A stretch of DNA of 64,000 bases from the NCBI RefSeq assembly GCF_041549525.1, contig NZ_CP157456.1:868001-932000 (forward strand). Direction: 5' to 3'. How positions within the stretch are numbered: position 1 is the first letter of the stretch; every line of letters begins with the position of its first letter. Under the pieces are notes generated by a model. That model was given only the letters and a program-made list of their open reading frames with translations, made no database searches and had not been told where the DNA came from. Shown here piece by piece: positions 2,498 to 36,135 of this stretch. Both the position numbers and the translations under genes were made by a program. This DNA comes from Paenarthrobacter aurescens (GTDB lineage: Bacteria; Actinomycetota; Actinomycetes; Actinomycetales; Micrococcaceae).

Positions 2498-3490
2498 ATG
2501 GCCAATAATGGTCGCCGGTCGGTCAAGCAGAAGAAGGGCCCCACCACCGGAACCGGTGGCCACGGCCGCAAGGCCCTGGAAGGCAAGGGTCCCACGCCCA
2601 AGGCGGAGGAACGCACCTACCACAAGGCATACAAGAACAAGCAGCTGGCTGAGCGCTCCGCCGCCAAGCGCGGCTCGGGCACCCGTCAGGGTGGCGCCGG
2701 CGCCCGCTCCGGTCCCAAGGGCCGTGCCACTGAAGAGCTGGTCACCGGCCGTAACTCGGTGGTCGAAGCCCTCCGCGCCGGTATCCCCGCCAAGGCCCTG
2801 CACGTGGCTATCCGCATTGAGATGGATGATCGCGTCAAGGAATCCCTGAAGCTCGCGGCCGAACGTGGGATCCCGCTGCTCGAAACCGGCAAGGTGGAGC
2901 TGGACCGCATGACTGAGGACGCTGTCCACCAGGGCCTCGTACTGCAGATCCCGCCGTACGAATACGAGGACGCCTACGACCTCGCCGAGACGACTCTCGC
3001 CAAGTGGAAGAAGGGGCACATCTCCAACGCCCCCATCTTCGTTGCACTGGACGGCATCACCGACCCCCGCAACCTCGGCGCGATCATCCGCTCCGTCTCC
3101 GCGTTCAGCGGCCACGGCGTCATCGTCCCCGAGCGTCGCTCCGTCGGCGTCACCGCGTCCGCCTGGAAGACCAGTGCCGGTGCCGCTGTCCGCGTACCTG
3201 TCGCCCGCGCGTCGAACCTCAACAACGCGCTCAAGCAGTTCAAGAACATGGGCATCTACGTCCTTGGCCTGGACGGCGACGGCGACGTCTCGCTGCCGGA
3301 TCTTACCGTGGCAACCGAGCCTGTGTGCATCGTTGTGGGCTCCGAAGGCAAGGGCCTCAGCAGGCTCGTGCGCGAAAACTGCGATCAGATCGTCTCGATC
3401 CCCATCGACTCCGCCATGGAGTCACTCAACGCATCCATGGCCGTTGGTATCTCGCTGTACGAAGTGTCGAGGCAGCGCGCCGCTAAGTAA
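2498..3490 (+). CDS. rlmB: 23S rRNA 2'-O-ribose methyltransferase, SpoU/TrmH family (RlmB-like)
   Basis: SAM-dependent SPOUT methyltransferase expected to 2'-O-methylate a guanosine of 23S rRNA. Residues 1-80 form a Lys/Arg/Gly-rich tail that probably contacts RNA. An L30e-like substrate-binding domain follows (from about ELVTGRNSVVEAL). The SpoU knot carries motif 1 (LDGITDPRNLGAIIRS), motif 2 (VCIVVGSEGKGLS) and motif 3 (IPIDSAMESLNASMAVGI). Length is 330 aa. It starts at ATG 2498, 80 bp after cysS. The exact target base is inferred from the family. Confidence 0.92.
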   Translation: MANNGRRSVKQKKGPTTGTGGHGRKALEGKGPTPKAEERTYHKAYKNKQLAERSAAKRGSGTRQGGAGARSGPKGRATEELVTGRNSVVEALRAGIPAKALHVAIRIEMDDRVKESLKLAAERGIPLLETGKVELDRMTEDAVHQGLVLQIPPYEYEDAYDLAETTLAKWKKGHISNAPIFVALDGITDPRNLGAIIRSVSAFSGHGVIVPERRSVGVTASAWKTSAGAAVRVPVARASNLNNALKQFKNMGIYVLGLDGDGDVSLPDLTVATEPVCIVVGSEGKGLSRLVRENCDQIVSIPIDSAMESLNASMAVGISLYEVSRQRAAK

Positions 3491-3500
3491 TCCTCAAGAA

Positions 3501-3577
3501 GGCGCCGCAAGCGCCATCCTCTGCGTGCTGCTCCACCGTCGCTTTGACGCACGCTTCCGGATGGCCCTTGTGGCGCC
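3501..3577 (-). repeat. 77-nt structured dispersed element, copy 1
   Basis: A 19-nt arm (3501-3519) pairs with 3559-3577 at 17 of 19 positions and encloses a 39-nt core (3520-3558). Read on the minus strand, the core matches copy 2 (7915-7991) at 36 of 39 positions, while the arms of the two copies are unrelated. An inner stem GCGTGC/GCACGC lies inside the core. It sits just after rlmB in a convergent junction. The function is unknown; a structured RNA, a bidirectional terminator or a REP-like repeat are all possible. Confidence 0.75.
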
Positions 3578-3591
3578 TTTCGCATGCCCGA

Positions 3592-3671
3592 CCGTCTCTC
3601 ACATCCCATGGGCTTCCTGCGGACCCTCTTCCACATCCCTCGGGTTTGAGTCGGTCGCTCTCTCATGTCCC
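3592..3671 (+). repeat. Tandem repeat, 32-bp period, three units (array A)
   Basis: Motif starts at 3592, 3624 and 3656 are spaced exactly 32 bp. The conserved part reads approximately CGCTCTCTCACRTCCC, and the middle unit is the most diverged. The same motif recurs inverted at 3755-3800 and directly at 35991-36135. Confidence 0.7.
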
Positions 3672-3754
3672 GCGTGCCTCAGCCTTCTCAGGATCTGTTC
3701 CGAACTTGACGAACGACGTCGACACACGCCTTAGAGGGCCGTCCGCCGCGGCGA

Positions 3755-3800
3755 GGATGTGAGAGAGGGATGGCCGGAAGGGCTCGGGAAGTGAGAGAGG
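3755..3800 (-). repeat. 32-bp-period repeat, two inverted units (array B)
   Basis: Two copies of CCTCTCTCACNTCC lie on the minus strand, beginning at 3755 and 3787 on the plus coordinate, again exactly 32 bp apart. They are inverted relative to array A about 85 bp upstream and end just before the stop codon of the minus-strand hydrolase gene. The remaining bases 3672-3754 show no gene. Confidence 0.68.
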
Positions 3801-3807
3801 GCTGGGG

Positions 3808-4617
3808 TTAGAAGTCGCGGCGGTTGGCCAGCACGGGGAGCTTGGTGCGGGCCTCTTCCACCACGGCGGGGTCGAGGTCGTAGAAGATCATGCCCGGCTC
3901 ACCTTCGAGGGCTTCCAGTACCTGGCCGAACGGGGACACGACGGCGGAGTACCCCACGCCCGTGGGTGCGGCACCTTTGGCTTCGATGCCCCGGGTTGCG
4001 GGATCGCCTTGGCCGCAGGCGAGCACGAACGTGGTGGTGTCCACCGCGCGGGCACGGGCCAGGAGCTGCCACTGATCGGCTTTGCCCGGACCTGATCCCC
4101 ACGAGGCAGAGACGATGTTCACCACAGCTCCGCGCTGGGCGTTGGCGGTGAACAGGGCCGGGAAACGGATGTCGTAGCAGGTAGCCACACCAAAGGTGAG
4201 GCCACCGGCGTCGAACGTTACTGGATCCGTGCCGGCCTCAACGGTGTCCGATTCGGCAAAGCCGAACGCATCAAAGAGGTGGACTTTGTCATAGCTCGTT
4301 TCCACACCCGGGCCTGTGACCAGGAGAGTGTTGCGTACCCGCGGGGACCCGGAGTCTGAGGGAGTTCCCGGGGTGAACATGCCGGCTACGATCACCAGCT
4401 GGAGTTCCCGGGCGAGGGACCTTACCCGGCTTGCCCACGGCCCATCCAAGGGTTGGGCGATGTCCAACAGCGAGTTTCCGAACGCGCGCATCATGGCTTC
4501 GGGGAAGACCACCAACTCCGCGCCGCCTTCCTTGGCCAAGCGGGCGTTCTCCTCAAGGAGCCGCAGGTTGCTGTCCGGATCCCGGCCGGTGATGACTTGG
4601 GCAAGTGCCACGCGCAC
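3808..4617 (-). CDS. Carbon-nitrogen hydrolase (nitrilase superfamily amidase)
   Basis: A 269-aa cytosolic hydrolase expected to cleave an amide or nitrile C-N bond. The full Glu-Lys-Cys triad is visible: Glu40 in VVFPEAMM, Lys111 in SYDKVHLFD and Cys147 in VATCYDIRFP. The ending FYDLDPAVVEEARTKLPVL is typical of the branch that holds omega-amidase and deaminated-glutathione amidase, but the substrate cannot be fixed from sequence. GTG 4617 was chosen because GGAGG lies 7 nt upstream and the family fold begins immediately (VRVALAQ); the frame stays open further upstream without homology-like sequence. It is divergent from glgX. Confidence 0.9.
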   Translation of the reverse strand: MRVALAQVITGRDPDSNLRLLEENARLAKEGGAELVVFPEAMMRAFGNSLLDIAQPLDGPWASRVRSLARELQLVIVAGMFTPGTPSDSGSPRVRNTLLVTGPGVETSYDKVHLFDAFGFAESDTVEAGTDPVTFDAGGLTFGVATCYDIRFPALFTANAQRGAVVNIVSASWGSGPGKADQWQLLARARAVDTTTFVLACGQGDPATRGIEAKGAAPTGVGYSAVVSPFGQVLEALEGEPGMIFYDLDPAVVEEARTKLPVLANRRDF

Positions 4618-4834
4618 GATAAAACCTCCAGTTGTCTTGGTCCCAGTATGCCAAGCGGGCTGGTCCCGGGAGGAGCATGCCGACACAATCGGCCTCGAGC
4701 TTTCGAATGCGCACCCGGTCAGGACAGCATTGCAGCAGGTGAGCGGCGCTTGAAATGCAGCAATCCTGGGGCAAGTAATGAAATCGAGACGCTGATCGTC
4801 GTCACATGGCCGCCCAGCGCGGTACATACTTTGC

Positions 4835-6970
4835 GTGGAACTAAACTTGCAAGCAATGGTTATGCCTATTTTTGACACAGCAGCTGCCCTGGATTCGTCA
4901 ATGCCCAGGCCCCTCGGACTGAGCGCGCCCCAGCCCGGAGTTTTCGACGCCCAAAGCGCTCCGGACAATTCGGTGAACGTGGCCGTCTTCGCACCGGATC
5001 TGGATCGCGTGGAGGTGGTGTTCCAAGCCCCTGGCGAACCATGGCAGTCCCACATCCTGTCCAACACGGAGGACGGTGTGCACTTCGGCCTGGTCAACGG
5101 CATGCCGCCCGGCACCCGCTACGGCTTCCGCGCAGCCCCGGGCGAGGGCGGCCTTCCGCTGTCCATCCCCGCGGTGGATCTGGATGACGACGGCGGCCAG
5201 CCCCTGCTGCTTGATCCTTACGGCCGCGCCGTGGACCAGCGGGGAGAGTTTCTTACCAGCGTCCACGTCGATACTGGCTTTGATTGGGGCGAGGACCACC
5301 CGCCCCGCACACCCATGCGTACCTCGGTGATCTATGAGGCGCACGTCCGTGGGCAGACGATGCTCCACCCGGACATCCCTGAACACCTCCGTGGTACGTA
5401 TGCGGGCATGGCGCACCCTGTGATGATCCAACATCTCACTGAACTTGGCATCACTGCCGTTCAGCTCCTGCCTATTCATTTCCACCTGGATGAGTCCCAT
5501 CTCCAGGATCTGGGCATGACCAATTACTGGGGCTACAACACGGCGGCGTTCTTCGCCCCGCACGCCGCTTACGCCACGGAGGCGGCCCGCAACGCTGGTC
5601 CGCATGCGGTGCAGGATGAGCTCAAAGGCATGATCAAGCTGCTCCATGCGGCAGGGATCGAAGTCATTCTTGACGTGGTGTACAACCACACTGCCGAGGC
5701 GGGGCCTGACGGACCGGCCTTGAGCTTCCGCGGCTTGGCCGAGACGCGTTACTACCGCCATGATGCCCACGGCCGGTACTTGGACACCACCGGTTGCGGC
5801 AATACCTTGGATTTCAGTGATCCCGTAGTGGTGGACCTGGCGCTGGATTCCTTGCGGTACTGGGTGAACGACTTCCATGTGGACGGTTTCCGCTTCGACC
5901 TCGCCGTGACCCTGTGCCGCGATGCCAGCAACACCTTCGATCCTCAGCACCCGTTCCTGCAGGCGATTGCCGAGGACCCGGTACTTTCCGGGGTCAAGCT
6001 GATCGCCGAGCCTTGGGATGTTGGCTACGGTGGCTGGCAGACGGGACGTTTCCCTCAAGGATGGTCGGATTGGAATGACCACTTCCGCGACGGCGTCCGG
6101 AGCTTCTGGCTTTCGGACAGGGCTGCCATGGAAGCCGGTGGCCAAGGTGGCTCAGTTGCTTCATTGGCTGAGCTCATGGCGGGCTCCGCCAACCTCTTCG
6201 CATCCTCAGGACGCACCCGGCTGGCCAGCGTCAACTTTGTCACGGCCCATGACGGTTTTACCCTTAAGGACTTGGTCAGCTACGACCGCAAGCACAACGA
6301 GGCCAACGGTGAGCAGAACCGTGACGGCCACGGGGACAACCGCAGCTACAACCACGGTGTGGAGGGCAGGAGCGAGAACGAGGCCATTGTTGCCGCCCGT
6401 GCCCTTTCCGTCCGCAACCTCATGGCCACCTTGCTCCTGTCTTTCGGCGTTCCCATGATCACGGCGGGTGACGAGATCGGGCGCACGCAGCAGGGCAATA
6501 ACAACGCTTACTGTCAGGACAATCCCACGGCCTGGCTCGATTGGAGCAGGACCCAGGAAGCCAACGCCATGTTCAGGACCACTCGTGAACTGGTGAGGTT
6601 GCGCCGCTGGTTCCTGCGGCATCAGCCGGAGAGCTTCCCGGGCAGCGCCAATGACTCGAGCCTTCAGTGGTTTGATGACAAGGGCAAGAAGATGACTCCG
6701 GCGCGCTGGAATGATCCCAACGTCCGCTCCGTCCAGCTCCTGATGGGTCACGAGGACAGTGAGATCCGCGGGTTGATCTCAGTGAACGGCAGCAACCAGG
6801 ACGTGAAGATGGTGTTGCCGGAGATTTTGAGCGAATCGGGCATAGGAAAGCGCATGTTTGAGCTTCGTTTCACCACCTCGGTGCTGCATGAGCGCAGAAA
6901 GGGCGCGTTGGTGGCCTCCGGCGAGCGGGATATCCTGCAAGCCAACACCATCAACATCTACCGAACGTAG
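4835..6970 (+). CDS. glgX: Glycogen debranching enzyme (GlgX/isoamylase type, GH13)
   Basis: Hydrolyses alpha-1,6 branches of glycogen, acting with phosphorylase. An N-terminal CBM48-like domain (about residues 30-140) precedes the GH13 barrel. Visible regions are DVVYNHTAE, DGFRFDLAVTL (nucleophile Asp about 355), LIAEPWD (acid Glu about 392) and FVTAHDGFTLKDLVSY. The stretch KHNEANGEQNRDG is characteristic of GlgX/isoamylases. Length is 711 aa, as usual. It starts at GTG 4835; ATG 4856 or 4862 are possible alternatives. The preceding divergent gap (4618-4834) must hold promoters for both genes, but I see no clear box. Confidence 0.94.
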   Translation: MELNLQAMVMPIFDTAAALDSSMPRPLGLSAPQPGVFDAQSAPDNSVNVAVFAPDLDRVEVVFQAPGEPWQSHILSNTEDGVHFGLVNGMPPGTRYGFRAAPGEGGLPLSIPAVDLDDDGGQPLLLDPYGRAVDQRGEFLTSVHVDTGFDWGEDHPPRTPMRTSVIYEAHVRGQTMLHPDIPEHLRGTYAGMAHPVMIQHLTELGITAVQLLPIHFHLDESHLQDLGMTNYWGYNTAAFFAPHAAYATEAARNAGPHAVQDELKGMIKLLHAAGIEVILDVVYNHTAEAGPDGPALSFRGLAETRYYRHDAHGRYLDTTGCGNTLDFSDPVVVDLALDSLRYWVNDFHVDGFRFDLAVTLCRDASNTFDPQHPFLQAIAEDPVLSGVKLIAEPWDVGYGGWQTGRFPQGWSDWNDHFRDGVRSFWLSDRAAMEAGGQGGSVASLAELMAGSANLFASSGRTRLASVNFVTAHDGFTLKDLVSYDRKHNEANGEQNRDGHGDNRSYNHGVEGRSENEAIVAARALSVRNLMATLLLSFGVPMITAGDEIGRTQQGNNNAYCQDNPTAWLDWSRTQEANAMFRTTRELVRLRRWFLRHQPESFPGSANDSSLQWFDDKGKKMTPARWNDPNVRSVQLLMGHEDSEIRGLISVNGSNQDVKMVLPEILSESGIGKRMFELRFTTSVLHERRKGALVASGERDILQANTINIYRT

Positions 6971-7000
6971 CCAGCCGAGCATCGAGGGGAGCCCGCCAGG

Positions 7001-7489
7001 GTGAATCGCAACCGCAACAAACTGGTGGCCTTCGCGGCGCTGGTGATCGCCGTCGTCGTGCTGGTGGTCGCCATGGTGGGCGGCGGCTCGCTGACGGCGC
7101 AAACCACGACGCCGGAAGCCGGGTCCACGTCTACGTCACCGGCGGCACGCAGCACCGCAGCGGCCAATACAGCAGCGGCCAGTTCAGCCATTGCCAATCC
7201 GTCCACACTGCCTGCCATCAACGCCTCGCAGCTGCCCAAGGAAGCACGCCAAACGCTGGCCCTGATTGCTCAGGGCGGCCCGTACCCGTACGAGCGCGAC
7301 GGCGTGAACTTCGGCAATTTTGAGGGATTGCTGCCTAAGAAATCCGGTGGTTTCTACAAGGAGTACACGGTGCCAACACCCGGGGAGCCGGACCGCGGCG
7401 CACGCCGGATCATTGTGGGCAAGGACTCAGCCAAGTACTACACCCCGGACCACTACGAGTCGTTCACGTTCATCGAAGAAGACAAATAG
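7001..7489 (+). CDS. Secreted or membrane-tethered guanyl-specific ribonuclease (RNase Sa/T1 family)
   Basis: A 162-aa protein. A basic N-terminus and one strong hydrophobic segment (about residues 8-28) serve as signal or anchor, followed by an Ala/Ser/Thr-rich linker to about residue 75. The C-terminal ~90 residues match the RNase Sa fold: YKEYTVPTPG carries the catalytic Glu, DRGARRIIVG the catalytic Arg and YYTPDHYESF the catalytic His. It cleaves RNA after G by family knowledge. It starts at GTG 7001 with a purine-rich stretch upstream. It lies 17 bp before a barstar-like gene, the expected intracellular inhibitor. Confidence 0.9.
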   Translation: MNRNRNKLVAFAALVIAVVVLVVAMVGGGSLTAQTTTPEAGSTSTSPAARSTAAANTAAASSAIANPSTLPAINASQLPKEARQTLALIAQGGPYPYERDGVNFGNFEGLLPKKSGGFYKEYTVPTPGEPDRGARRIIVGKDSAKYYTPDHYESFTFIEEDK

Positions 7490-7506
7490 CCAACAAGCAG
7501 GAGCCC

Positions 7507-7866
7507 ATGAAGATCTATTCCGCCGACACCTGGACCCTTGAAGAACTGCAGGAGCAAATCTCCGACGCCGGCCGCCGCACCGTCCTTGTCCCGCCGGCGT
7601 CCACCAAGCAGGCAGTCCTTGAGGTTTTCGGCCAGGTCCTCGATTTCCCCGAGTACTACGGCGTGAACCTGGACGCCCTCAACGACTCCTTGCATGATTA
7701 CGCGGATGCCCTTTCAGAGGACGACGGCGGCCCTGTCACCATGATCTGGCAGGTCCCGGCGGTCTACCGCACAGACCGTTCCTTCGGCGTCGTCTGCGAA
7801 ATCCTCCAAGACGCAGAGAGCTACGCCGGCCGCGACCTCAAGGTCATCGCCGTCTTCGAGAATTAG
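7507..7866 (+). CDS. Barstar-family ribonuclease inhibitor
   Basis: A 119-aa cytosolic protein of barstar size and pattern: an N-terminal strand, LEVFGQVLDFPEYYGVNLDALNDSLHD (the helix and loop that plug the nuclease active site, with the family's YYG.N.DAL.D motif) and a C-terminal strand ending DLKVIAVFEN. It should bind and silence the guanyl-specific RNase encoded immediately upstream before export. ATG 7507 has CAGGAG 5 nt upstream. The pair forms an RNase-immunity cassette inserted between glgX and glgP. Confidence 0.93.
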   Translation: MKIYSADTWTLEELQEQISDAGRRTVLVPPASTKQAVLEVFGQVLDFPEYYGVNLDALNDSLHDYADALSEDDGGPVTMIWQVPAVYRTDRSFGVVCEILQDAESYAGRDLKVIAVFEN

Positions 7867-7914
7867 TCGCGCCAACGGGTCCTATGGATCCCAACCGTAG
7901 CGGGCCTTGAGACG

Positions 7915-7991
7915 CAATTGGCGACCGCGACCCGGCAGCGTGCGTCAAAGCGACGAAGGAGCAGCACGCAGAGGGTTACGGTCGCCAATTG
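7915..7991 (+). repeat. 77-nt structured dispersed element, copy 2
   Basis: Arms 7915-7933 and 7973-7991 pair at 17 of 19 positions; the 39-nt core is 7934-7972. Core and arm lengths are identical to copy 1, and the core differs at only 3 positions, yet the arms share no obvious sequence with copy 1. The inner stem is 7938-7943 with 7964-7969. It lies in the convergent gap between the barstar gene and glgP. Confidence 0.75.
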
Positions 7992-8008: not shown

Positions 8009-10633
8009 TTAGGCGTTCGCGATCAACCCCAGTTCAGCCTTGGATGCCAACGCCGAGTGCTTCGGGAACACCCGGACGGTGTAACCGAAGGAGCCGGAGC
8101 GGTTGATCACCAGGGAGCCGCTGAACAGGTGGCGTCCGCCGCCGAGGTCTTCAACGGAGTCCAGTTCAGCCACCACCACGTCCTCGAGTTCATCGGATTC
8201 CTCAGCGCGACCGAAGGCCACCTCCACTGAGACATCGTCCGGGGTGAGGTTGTTCAGGGCCACGTAGGCGTTGACTTGGAGGGTGTCGCCCACCTGGGGT
8301 TCCTCTGAGACGCCCACGGAGTCCACGTGTTCCACCACAACCTCGGGCCACGCATTGCGTACCTTGGTGGTCCAGGCGGCGAGTTCCTTGGCTTCCTTGA
8401 AGGACTCAGCAACAGCGCGTCGGCCGGACACTGCGGCCGGGCAGTAGAGGTTGTTGACGTAGTCGTGGAGCATGCGTTCGGCCGAAACTGCGGGGCCCAG
8501 GTTAGCCAGGGTGTGCTTGATCATGGACACCCAGTGGGTGGGCACGGTCTCGCGGCTGGATTCCGATGGCCCTGCGGCACCGGCGCCTTGGGCAACAGTG
8601 GTGCCGTAGAAACGCGGTGCTACCTGAGTTTCCAGGAGTTCGTAGAGCGCTGATGCTTCAATGTCGTCGCGTTCCTCGGAGGATGCGTTGTTGTTGGCGG
8701 TGGGGATTGCCCAGCCGTTTTCGCCGTCGTACATTTCGTCCCACCAGCCGTCCAGGACGGAGAGGTTGAGCGAGCCGTTGATGGCGGCCTTCATGCCGGA
8801 AGTGCCGCAGGCTTCGAGCGGCCGGAGCGGGTTGTTGAGCCAGACGTCGCAGCCGGGGAACAGCGTCCGTGCCATGGCGATGTCGTAGTTGGGCAGGAAG
8901 ACGATCCTGTGCCGCACCTGGGGGTCGTCGGTGAACTTGACCAGGTCCTGGATCATTTTCTTGCCGGCGTCGTCCGCCGGGTGTGACTTCCCGGCGATGA
9001 CCAACTGGATGGGGTGTTTGGGGTCCAGGAGCAGGGCCTTCAAGCGTGCCGGGTCGCGCAGCATGAGCGTGAGCCGCTTGTAGGTGGGCACGCGGCGTGC
9101 GAATCCGATGGTGAGGACGTCGGGGTCCAGCACGGAGTCTGTCCACCCGAGTTCGGCGTCGGCGGCGCCGCGCTTCTTCCAGGAGGCACGGAGCCGGCGT
9201 CGAACGTCGTCGATGAGTTGGGCACGGAGCTCCCGGCGGAGGGCCCAGACGTCTTCGTCGCTGACGTTGTAGGCCAGGTCCCAGCGGCCCATTGCCTCGG
9301 CTTCGGCCCCGAATTGGGTGCGTGCAAGGGCGGAGATCCGGGGATCCACCCAAGTGGGCACGTGGACGCCGTTGGTGACGGAGGTGATGGGGATTTCGGA
9401 GTGATCGAATCCTGGCCAGAGCCCGGCGAACATTTCGCGGGAGACCACGCCGTGCAGTTTGGCCACGCCGTTGGCGCGCTGGGCCAGGCGTAGGCCCATC
9501 ACTGCCATGTTGAACACTGAGGGGTTGCCGCCGTCGAAGTTTTCGCGGCCGAGTTCCAGGATGCGTTCGGTGGGCACAGCGGGCGCCAGCCCGGCTTCGA
9601 AGAAGTGCTTGATCTGCACGGTCTCGAACCGGTCGATCCCGGCTGGGACGGGCGTGTGCGTGGTGAAGACCGTGGATGCGCGGCCGGCGGCGAGGGCTTC
9701 ATCCCAACTGAGCGGGTGCTCGGGGTTGGACATGGCTTCCTGGATGCGTTCTATGCCGAGGAATCCTGCGTGGCCTTCGTTGGTGTGGAACACTTCGGGC
9801 GCGGGTGTGCCGGTGAGTTCCTGGTAGACCCGCAGGGCCTTGACGCCGCCCATGCCCAGGAGGAGTTCCTGCTGGAGCCGGTGATCGCCGCCACCGCCGT
9901 ACAGGCGGTCTGTGATGCCGCGGGCGGCTTCGTCGTTGGAGGGGACGTTGGAGTCCAACAGCAGCAGCGGAACACGTCCGACGTCGGCACGCCACACGTG
10001 GGCGTGAAGCTCGCGTCCGTTGGGCAGCGGCAGCGAGATATGAACGGGCTTGCCTTGGGCGCCGTCCTTGGCCGGGTGGCGGAGAAGCGTCAGGGGGAGG
10101 CCGTCGGGGTCCAGCACGGGGTAGGTTTCCTGCTGCCAGGCGTCGCGGGAGAGGGACTGCTTGAAGTAGCCGGCCTGGTAGAGGAGCCCGACGCCGATCA
10201 GCGGCACGCCGAGGTCCGAGGCAGCTTTGAGGTGGTCACCGGCGAGGATGCCCAGGCCGCCGGAGTACTGCGGGAGCACTTCGGTGATGCCGAATTCGGG
10301 GGAGAAGTACGCGATGTAGGCCGGGGCGTCCTCGTTCAGTCCCTGGTACCAGCGCGGTTCGCTGAGGTAGCGGTCCAGATCGGCTGCGGCGTGTTGAACG
10401 CGTTCCACAACTTCACCGTCGTTGGCCAGGTCCTGCAACTGCTCGCGGCTGATCGAACCCAGAAGGGCTATGGGGTCATGCTGCGAGGCCTCCCAGAGAG
10501 CCGGACTAAGGCTCGCAAAAAGTTCCCGGGTTGGCCGGTGCCAGGACCAGCGCAAATTGGTCGCCAACCGGGCCAGGGGCCGGATGGGCTCGGGGAGGAC
10601 GGTACGGACTGTAAACCTTCGAATTGCCTTCAC
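8009..10633 (-). CDS. glgP: Alpha-glucan (glycogen) phosphorylase, DUF3417-type
   Basis: Releases glucose-1-phosphate from non-reducing ends of glycogen using PLP. The N-terminus (MKAIRRFTVRTVLPE, then LATNLRWSWHRPT) is typical of the actinobacterial phosphorylase with a DUF3417 domain. EVFHTNEGHAGF, VTNGVHVPTW and the PLP-site region LEACGTSGMKAAINGSLN are visible. Length is about 874 aa. GTG 10633 is preferred because family members begin MKA(I/L)RRFTVR; GTG 10642 is an in-frame alternative. It is divergent from glgE, which channels carbon the opposite way, so a shared control region (10634-10764) is likely. Confidence 0.94.
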   Translation of the reverse strand: MKAIRRFTVRTVLPEPIRPLARLATNLRWSWHRPTRELFASLSPALWEASQHDPIALLGSISREQLQDLANDGEVVERVQHAAADLDRYLSEPRWYQGLNEDAPAYIAYFSPEFGITEVLPQYSGGLGILAGDHLKAASDLGVPLIGVGLLYQAGYFKQSLSRDAWQQETYPVLDPDGLPLTLLRHPAKDGAQGKPVHISLPLPNGRELHAHVWRADVGRVPLLLLDSNVPSNDEAARGITDRLYGGGGDHRLQQELLLGMGGVKALRVYQELTGTPAPEVFHTNEGHAGFLGIERIQEAMSNPEHPLSWDEALAAGRASTVFTTHTPVPAGIDRFETVQIKHFFEAGLAPAVPTERILELGRENFDGGNPSVFNMAVMGLRLAQRANGVAKLHGVVSREMFAGLWPGFDHSEIPITSVTNGVHVPTWVDPRISALARTQFGAEAEAMGRWDLAYNVSDEDVWALRRELRAQLIDDVRRRLRASWKKRGAADAELGWTDSVLDPDVLTIGFARRVPTYKRLTLMLRDPARLKALLLDPKHPIQLVIAGKSHPADDAGKKMIQDLVKFTDDPQVRHRIVFLPNYDIAMARTLFPGCDVWLNNPLRPLEACGTSGMKAAINGSLNLSVLDGWWDEMYDGENGWAIPTANNNASSEERDDIEASALYELLETQVAPRFYGTTVAQGAGAAGPSESSRETVPTHWVSMIKHTLANLGPAVSAERMLHDYVNNLYCPAAVSGRRAVAESFKEAKELAAWTTKVRNAWPEVVVEHVDSVGVSEEPQVGDTLQVNAYVALNNLTPDDVSVEVAFGRAEESDELEDVVVAELDSVEDLGGGRHLFSGSLVINRSGSFGYTVRVFPKHSALASKAELGLIANA

Positions 10634-10764
10634 GAGCGCCACACTAACGGACTCACATGGCAGCCGGAACCGGATTGGGTTTCTTTTAGGTAAAAGTCAC
10701 CTTGCGTCGAGTAGATAGGTCGTGTGCTTAGCATTCTGTGATTTTTGTCGCTAACGTCGTGGTT

Positions 10765-18789: not shown

Positions 18790-24010
<5,221 letters not shown>

Positions 24011-24088
24011 CACACAACACACTGCACGCGTCCACTATGTGGTTCCCGAACAACAACCAATGTTCCAGGAACCAACACAACAAAATAA

Positions 24089-24139
24089 CAACACCACAGT
24101 TGAAACAACACCACAGTTGAAACAACACCACAGTTGTAA
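24089..24139 (+). repeat. Three 17-bp tandem repeats in the 23S-5S spacer
   Basis: The unit CAACACCACAGTTGAAA is repeated exactly at 24089 and 24106, with a third slightly changed copy at 24123-24139. Each unit holds a short dyad CAAC/GTTG. It probably arose by slippage and may influence rRNA processing. Confidence 0.85.
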
Positions 24140-24176
24140 CCCAAAGATTTCCCACCCCACGGGGTCGGGTAACAGA

Positions 24177-24293
24177 GTTACGGCGGTCATAGCGTGGGGG
24201 AAACGCCCGGTCCCATTCCGAACCCGGAAGCTAAGACCCACAGCGCCGATGGTACTGCACCCGGGAGGGTGTGGGAGAGTAGGACACCGCCGG
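24177..24293 (+). rRNA. 5S ribosomal RNA
   Basis: It runs from GTTACGGCGGTCATAGCGTG to GGACACCGCCGGAC, and the two ends pair (GGCGGT with ACCGCC). CCCATTCCGAACCCGGAAGC is the conserved loop segment. About 117 nt. Confidence 0.95.
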
Positions 24294-24304
24294 ACATAAA
24301 TTCA

Positions 24305-35917: not shown

Positions 35918-35990
35918 GGCTGGCTCTTCGTGGGGCGGCCCACGGGGCCGCAACGCTCGGCCCGCTCGGTGGTACCTCCCTTAGACGCCA

Positions 35991-36135
35991 CGCTCTATCA
36001 CTTCCCGGGCGCTTTCTCCTGTCGCTCTCTCACGTCCCGGGTGCTTTCTCCTGTCGCTCTCTCACGTCCCATGTGCTCGGGCGCGACGCTCTCTCACTTC
36101 CCGGGGTGCTTGGGTGCGACGTTCTATCACTAGCG
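35991..36135 (+). repeat. Tandem repeat, 32-bp period, 4.5 units (array C)
   Basis: Units begin at 35991, 36023, 36055, 36087 and 36120 (spacing 32, 32, 32, 33). The conserved part is CGCTCTCTCACGTCCCGG; the first two units also share GCTTTCTCCTGT in the remainder. It is the same family as arrays A and B. It occupies most of the 350-bp gap before the MFS gene, upstream of the GntR-type sites. Confidence 0.85.

Follow-up and report, generated by a model that had tools for sequence, protein, structure and literature searches.

Intrinsic terminators of convergent genes are built as a GC-rich stem-loop that is followed by a T-run. The CGTC-tagged REPs of Di Nocera et al. (2013, PMC3733652), which include RPE-4 and RPE-6 of Rickettsia, have an unpaired CGTC at one end, a stem of 8-9 bp whose first two positions are AT pairs, a loop of 4-5 and a CCA tail; according to the available text of that paper they lie mostly downstream of genes and at few divergent sites, some copies are located in genes, and no dedicated transposase is known. 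In REPIN/RAYT systems, as presented in the accessible part of PMC3116915, it is the spacer that varies, between conserved outer parts, and the REP-targeting insertion sequences IS1397 and IS621 carry transposase genes (available text of PMC1525189). For high-GC Actinobacteridae, the accessible portion of PMC6006769 gives the IS200-type subclass of Y1 enzymes only, and that of the RepRanger paper (PMC12306157) is confined to figures in a table for a single species of Arthrobacter. At the level of titles and abstract openings, the literature on Arthrobacter repeats and on REPs yielded no published description of the hairpin family reported here.

The window, a stretch of 64,000 nucleotides from Paenarthrobacter aurescens (NZ_CP157456.1, positions 868,001 to 932,000), contains two hairpins that a first-pass annotation had described as 77-nt elements with 19-nt arms around a 39-nt core. 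Direct reading of the sequence and an inverted-repeat scan bear out their positions and pairing (Table 1), and likewise the claim that the cores are identical at 36/39 positions (3 differences) while the arms are unrelated. The arm boundaries needed refinement: the arms of copy 1 extend to 21 nt, and the inner arm pairs are shared by the whole family. Both copies follow shortly after a stop codon in a convergent junction, as had been noted; we refer to the homes of copy 1 and copy 2 as junctions 1 and 2. Folding of both copies and both strands with RNA parameters gives z-scores of -6.2 to -7.2, with 0/200 shuffles as good, and folding with DNA parameters gives -5.3 to -6.1. A bidirectional terminator, as proposed earlier, would agree with the position and the GC-rich stem-loop, but the conserved 39-nt tip sets the elements apart from intrinsic terminators, and no long T-run could be read after the arms of either window copy: by eye, copy 1 is adjoined by no more than TTT or TTCTT, and copy 2 by nothing of the kind. 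The computed terminator scan takes loops of 3-8 nt, so that longer loops are out of its reach. Comparison with Rfam returned no match at the element positions of the window at gathering score, nor in the elements of 6 loci at E≤5, and we therefore reject a known RNA family, in line with the earlier remark that no named family matches. Elsewhere in the window the Rfam scan locates an msiK RNA (RF01747; 43600-43659, minus strand) and a 16S-23S-5S rRNA operon (18790-24295, plus strand). A GTGAGAGAGCGTC-like motif recurs at window positions 35989-36130 and 3590-3666, with 8 matches at ≤2 mismatches vs. 1.98 expected (0/100 shuffles as many) and five matches spaced 32-33 nt; similar arrays lie between genes of relatives (L075, L336, L402, L403, L414, L425).

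Table 1. Positions of the two window hairpins, their neighbouring genes and the ~102-nt class (window numbering, or numbering within the named locus).
Feature	Position	Strand	Remarks
Copy 1	3501..3577 (arms reach 3499-3579)	-	sequence, inverted-repeat scan, alignment, covariance model, folding
Copy 1, arms by inverted-repeat scan	3499-3519/3559-3579		21 nt, 90% complementary
Copy 1 parts, 5' half	arm 3577-3559, GGAA 3558-3555, P2 3554-3549, GTCAAA 3548-3543	-	
Copy 1 parts, 3' half	P3 3542-3530, A 3529, P2' 3528-3523, AGA 3522-3520, arm 3519-3501	-	
Copy 2	7915..7991	+	sequence, inverted-repeat scan, alignment, covariance model, folding
Copy 2, arms by inverted-repeat scan	7915-7933/7973-7991		19 nt, 89% complementary, 17/19
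Copy 2 parts, 5' half	arm 7915-7933, GGCA 7934-7937, P2 7938-7943, GTCAAA 7944-7949	+	
Copy 2 parts, 3' half	P3 7950-7962, A 7963, P2' 7964-7969, AGA 7970-7972, arm 7973-7991	+	
SpoU/rlmB-like methylase gene	2498..3490	+	stop 10 nt ahead of copy 1
Carbon-nitrogen (CN) hydrolase gene	3808..4686	-	converges on copy 1; stop at 3808
Barstar-like gene	7507..7866	+	stop 48 nt ahead of copy 2
Phosphorylase gene (DUF3417 + PF00343)	8009..10642	-	converges on copy 2, stop 17 nt away
~102-nt class with GTCCGCNCAGCGGGCG-like hairpin	L069 3451-3552, L075 1899-2000, L103 1514-1616		
~102-nt class, further copies	L066 1955-2056 and 2580-2681		

The hairpins are members of a dispersed repeat family of Arthrobacter-type soil actinobacteria. 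As a DNA query, copy 2 finds 6 places in its own 4.36-Mb genome, itself counted; an 18-base core pattern with ≤3 mismatches finds 12, and since the reversed-pattern control gives 8, most of these weak matches may be chance. Covariance model R1, built from 11 aligned own-genome copies including both window copies, returns 19 matches in the own genome at E≤1, of which 18 reach E≤8.2e-5, and, at E≤0.01, matches in 26/39 genomes, made up of 25/25 of the genus (own included) and 1/14 others. In a family-level sample 26/295 genomes match at E≤1e-5, spread over 2/32 genera, and 22/24 of the genus members listed carry a match, in a listing that leaves out most genomes lacking one; model R2 at E≤1e-4 matches 11/396 genomes of the order (4/109 genera) and 2/396 of the phylum, both of the own genus, all searches of >40 genomes being run with stricter filters. 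Among the distant matches, G607 and G095 retain the whole P3 motif (described below) and G028 retains its outer half. One core pattern occurs in at least 118 stretches of named genomes, and the 80 matches listed by title all come from Arthrobacter, Pseudarthrobacter or Paenarthrobacter; the same single pattern gave 0 matches in viral contigs, on which ground a phage origin was rejected. Match pairs ~1.9 kb apart had suggested the ends of insertion sequences, a candidate dismissed on finding that in the loci read these pairs flank glycine-cleavage genes (presumably gcvT, gcvH, glyA and sdaA) or other non-transposase genes. A tandem triplet with progressively shorter arms occupies positions 3966058-3966422 of the own genome (L067 1559-1923), and G607, from another family of the order, has three consecutive relatives of the element in which the surround of the core differs (L276 1501-1754).

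The collected matches number 155, reduced to 154 for the pair and arm-cluster analyses after the weak match L036 was dropped, and since the 155 fall into 47 arm clusters they are non-independent. They define a conserved core of ~53 nt that consists of G, a mismatch, CATCC, the internal loop GGMA/RGA, P2, GTCNAA/(G)A and P3, the latter following the scheme GC-GA-S-GNA-S-GA-GC. The inner five arm pairs (consensus CATCC/GGATG) are common to the family, a G-C pair beyond the frequent mismatch (86/105) is also part of the shared element, and only ~11 outer arm pairs are free to differ between loci. Covariation was counted on alignment A2 (109 matches, 108 distinct, fitted to the model), not on the 46 of A3. 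Over P1, P2 and three P3 pairs, 93.5% of the pair cells are standard, 23/26 pairs show a double change, and the covariation score is 0.653 vs. 0.156 for shuffled alignments (0/500 as high) and at most 0.099 for slid ones, strong covariation that upholds the earlier proposal of a structured family. The third position of P2 shows all four Watson-Crick pairs, with G.T scarce. The tag and P3 with tandem GA on both sides could be parsed in 132/154 copies, those with long P3 inserts being among the other 22. In the parsed copies, the outer pairs of P3 are GC/GC (115), GG/CC (13) or others (4), the closing pair is GC (81), CG (47), AT (3) or GT (1), and the triloop is GAA (111), GCA (11), GGA (5), GTA (3) or another (2). 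At base 32, T or C goes with a 3' GA in 65/66 cases and A with a 3' A in 52/54, and an extra outer P3 pair, if present, is Watson-Crick in 12/12 (G-C 8, A-T 4). Read from its letters, P3 is probably a GNA-triloop hairpin that contains tandem G.A pairs. Copies with similar arms show double-sided changes of a pair at 446 positions vs. 155 expected under independence, with both copies Watson-Crick at 317 of the 446, and changes between Watson-Crick and G.T outnumber those between Watson-Crick and A.C by 186 to 49 (180 copy pairs, counts not corrected for descent). The strict covariation claimed earlier is seen as paired change inside P2, inside P3 and among similar-arm copies; it does not extend to the arms of the window copies, which belong to two loci whose stems vary from species to species even in the absence of the core.

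Gene contexts were assigned with a simple gene caller of our own, in which a neighbour beyond the analysed stretch counted as opposite, a rule that applied to 6 upstream neighbours and 1 downstream neighbour in the intergenic rows. The majority of intergenic copies are located at the 3' ends of genes, a placement that supports the earlier notion of a REP-like repeat: the 118 intergenic matches comprise 50 antisense to both neighbours (6 with the upstream neighbour unseen), 46 convergent, 21 sense to both and 1 divergent. Counted as arm clusters, the contexts are antisense 17, convergent 16, sense 3, divergent 0 and in called genes 11. The distance from the opposing stop to the 3' end of the element has a median of 20 nt (≤30 nt in 67/95), and that from the upstream same-strand stop a median of 75 nt (≤30 nt in 22/67). 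Called genes are overlapped by 37/155 matches, some merely from a start called too early (GcvH copies). In-frame copies are found in the linker of an HMA/E1-E2 ATPase, in a DUF4194 protein and in a variable stretch of a Peptidase_S58 protein, and one copy lies antisense within an FAD-binding gene, which we take to be nadB-like; relatives hold remnants. A core inside a coding frame, which the first-pass annotation had named as a possible refutation, thus holds for a minority of the loci, where the element is inserted in frame into a variable region, and because most copies are intergenic, coding does not explain the family. In the Peptidase_S58 loop the core is reversed in place in three genomes (L194, L208, L219). 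The ATPase and DUF4194 copies have their arms and adjoining residues in common, so the arms travelled along there. In some copies other hairpins are nested inside P3. A second, CGAGCTTGCGAGG-like hairpin motif occurs within the P3 loop of L222, L237, L247, L198, L076 (1022-1143) and L035 (1501-1622), and in a class of ~102 nt P3 encloses a conserved GTCCGCNCAGCGGGCG-like hairpin (Table 1).

How does the family compare with the described systems? It shares with the CGTC-tagged REPs (available text of PMC3733652) a short palindrome, a CGTC tag beside a hairpin and placement at gene 3' ends, only 1/118 intergenic matches being divergent; the presence of some copies within genes and the lack of a known dedicated transposase are further common traits. 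Unlike in those REPs, the CGTC is internal, between P2 and P3, with its C paired in P2; P3 has GC/GC or GG/CC outer pairs, tandem G.A and a triloop on a stem that is not AT-started; and there is no CCA tail, the whole unit measures ~77 nt and the arms differ between loci. The in-frame insertion into unrelated genes (HMA/E1-E2 ATPase, DUF4194, Peptidase_S58) resembles, by description in the accessible text, that of Rickettsia palindromic elements. With REPIN/RAYT (available part of PMC3116915) it has in common a hairpin composed of inverted parts, a variable part with compensatory changes, and tandem clusters, whereas its tip is conserved and its outer arms vary. Like IS1397 and IS621, the elements are located specifically within palindromes, as far as the accessible text of PMC1525189 describes these, but the family is a short non-coding core. 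By the definitions given in the available texts of PMC3733652 and PMC3116915, the family is not one of CGTC REPs or REPINs, on the grounds of tag position, stem, tail, architecture and transposase; its likeness to REPs lies in where it is placed, in its dispersal and in its insertion in frame. The Y1/RAYT transposase PF01797, the one mobilising-enzyme family searched for, was found in 0/24 genomes (16 of the genus), with a control giving matches in 5/14 named genomes, and a RAYT-driven REP was rejected because PF01797 is absent.

To follow the same junctions across relatives, junction 1 was matched in 46 genomes, with 30 loci taken and 24 parsed, and junction 2 in 45/46 genomes, with 30 loci taken, own included; several of the latter had misplaced boundaries, and for L437 and L439 the reading comes from the first of two comparisons. 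At junction 2 the core is present in 6 of the 30 genomes, a plain hairpin in 7, a composite in 1 (L434) and neither recognisably in 16, and core and plain hairpin occur together in 0/30. The core carriers have four arm sequences (L432 equals L433, and L439 nearly equals L454); among the plain hairpins L435 and L437 are alike and the others different, for example 21 pairs around GGGC in L435 and 18 pairs around CGTC in L442. Since junction 2 has the core in 6 genomes and a plain hairpin in 7, the core sits at the apex of terminator-like stem-loops, and their stems vary among species whether or not the core is there. The 16 genomes with neither indicate that the hairpin is dispensable there. At junction 1 the core is present in 4/24 parsed loci (own included), with similar arms; L407 has the same arms closed by a short loop without the core, keeps letters of the element end and could have arisen by deletion; in L405 the plain hairpin is another one, and the hairpin scoring at this junction covers these loci. 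The comparison yielded no clean empty counterpart, with identical arms, of a filled site. Some copies stay at the same junction across species, and for 135/154 copies core type is tied more closely to locus (z 6.7) than to genome (z 1.9; 32/1000 shuffles as high), which led us to reject recent homogenisation within genomes. Given this and the paired changes in similar-arm copies, many copies look like old residents under structural constraint.

Mismatches within the arms differ between the two strands. On the strand reading GCGTGCGTC, the outer columns hold 87 G.T vs. 27 A.C over all copies and 22 vs. 14 with one copy per arm cluster, and purine-purine mismatches exceed pyrimidine-pyrimidine ones by 98 to 9 (22 vs. 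4 per arm cluster); when the cut is widened beyond the stem, outer G.T and A.C show no difference (36 vs. 38). By context, outer G.T/A.C counts are 36/0 for copies sense to both neighbours (20/0 intergenic and 16/0 in called genes), 23/11 for convergent copies, 13/7 for those antisense to both, and 12/4 and 2/5 in two further called-gene classes. In the inner part G.T is favoured in every class having any, with 34/8 in the antisense class, and purine-purine mismatches in copies antisense to both neighbours favour the same strand (20 vs. 3). Because the mismatches are asymmetric and inner G.T is favoured throughout, the strand reading GCGTGCGTC is probably the one that matters. The gradient of G.T/A.C with context speaks for RNA, and the antisense copies speak for single-stranded DNA; an RNA role of the element is possible.

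The reading that we favour, with a probability of roughly one half, is that of a REP-like dispersed palindromic repeat built inside out, with the conserved core at the tip, ~11 locus-specific outer stem pairs and the core spreading between hairpins. The core would spread as a non-autonomous element and settle in, or replace the tip of, terminator-like hairpins; a putative trans-acting factor would read the GTC tag and the P3 hairpin on one strand; and the stem-loop, once in place, would be retained as the 3'-end hairpin of its locus. We count for this reading the covariation, the P3 pairs, the 3'-end placement, junction 2, the in-frame copies, the nesting and the tandem triplet, and against it the missing same-arm empty site, the dispensable hairpin at junction 2, the arms shared by the ATPase and DUF4194 copies and the failure to find a mobilising enzyme of the one family searched for. 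The tracking of core type by locus more than by genome also speaks for old residence and against active spread.

Tentatively, the ~53-nt non-coding core might insert copies of itself specifically in loops of terminator-like stem-loops without a REP-type transposase; other hairpins would likewise copy into its own P3 loop, and the core would be recognised as a single strand via its tagged tandem-G.A/GNA hairpin. If so, the arms would be the host's, and cross-locus covariation a record of the hairpins entered. It is rather doubtful that the elements are cis-acting structured RNAs at transcript 3' ends (a terminator or stabiliser with a protein-bound conserved apical motif) spread by ordinary duplication. 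The double changes and the excess of changes to G.T over A.C among similar-arm copies (not corrected for descent), the absence of outer A.C in copies whose folded strand has the sense of both neighbours, and the persistence of certain copies at one junction across species would all fit such an RNA, but 50/118 intergenic matches are antisense to both neighbours, with the purine-purine bias on the same strand there, in-frame copies lie within unrelated genes, and the window copies have no long T-run. Mobility of the whole ~77-nt hairpin (or more), with the arms carried along by the core and diverging afterwards through paired changes, could account for the many double changes among similar-arm copies and for the arms and adjoining residues shared in frame by the ATPase and DUF4194 copies; the nearly identical cores and unrelated arms of the window copies, and the plain hairpins that vary as much as the arms at the same junction, make this unlikely. 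If template switching neutrally corrected an imperfect palindrome, without selection on folding, it would yield double changes and in-place core reversal as in the Peptidase_S58 loop, but this reading is very improbable given the strand asymmetry of the outer mismatches, which holds with one copy per arm cluster, and the conserved unpaired core letters, a case weakened by the even counts of the wider cut.

On the favoured inside-out reading, REP-like repeats would extend to bacteria without the Y1 enzymes that accompany REPs, none having been found in 24 genomes. Comparing carriers and non-carriers of the core at a single junction is feasible over many species, and such a comparison makes the turnover of terminator-like hairpins and the transposase-free spread of palindromes testable. 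The family also carries a warning, namely that covariation of arms across loci can reflect different host stems and not compensating mutation.
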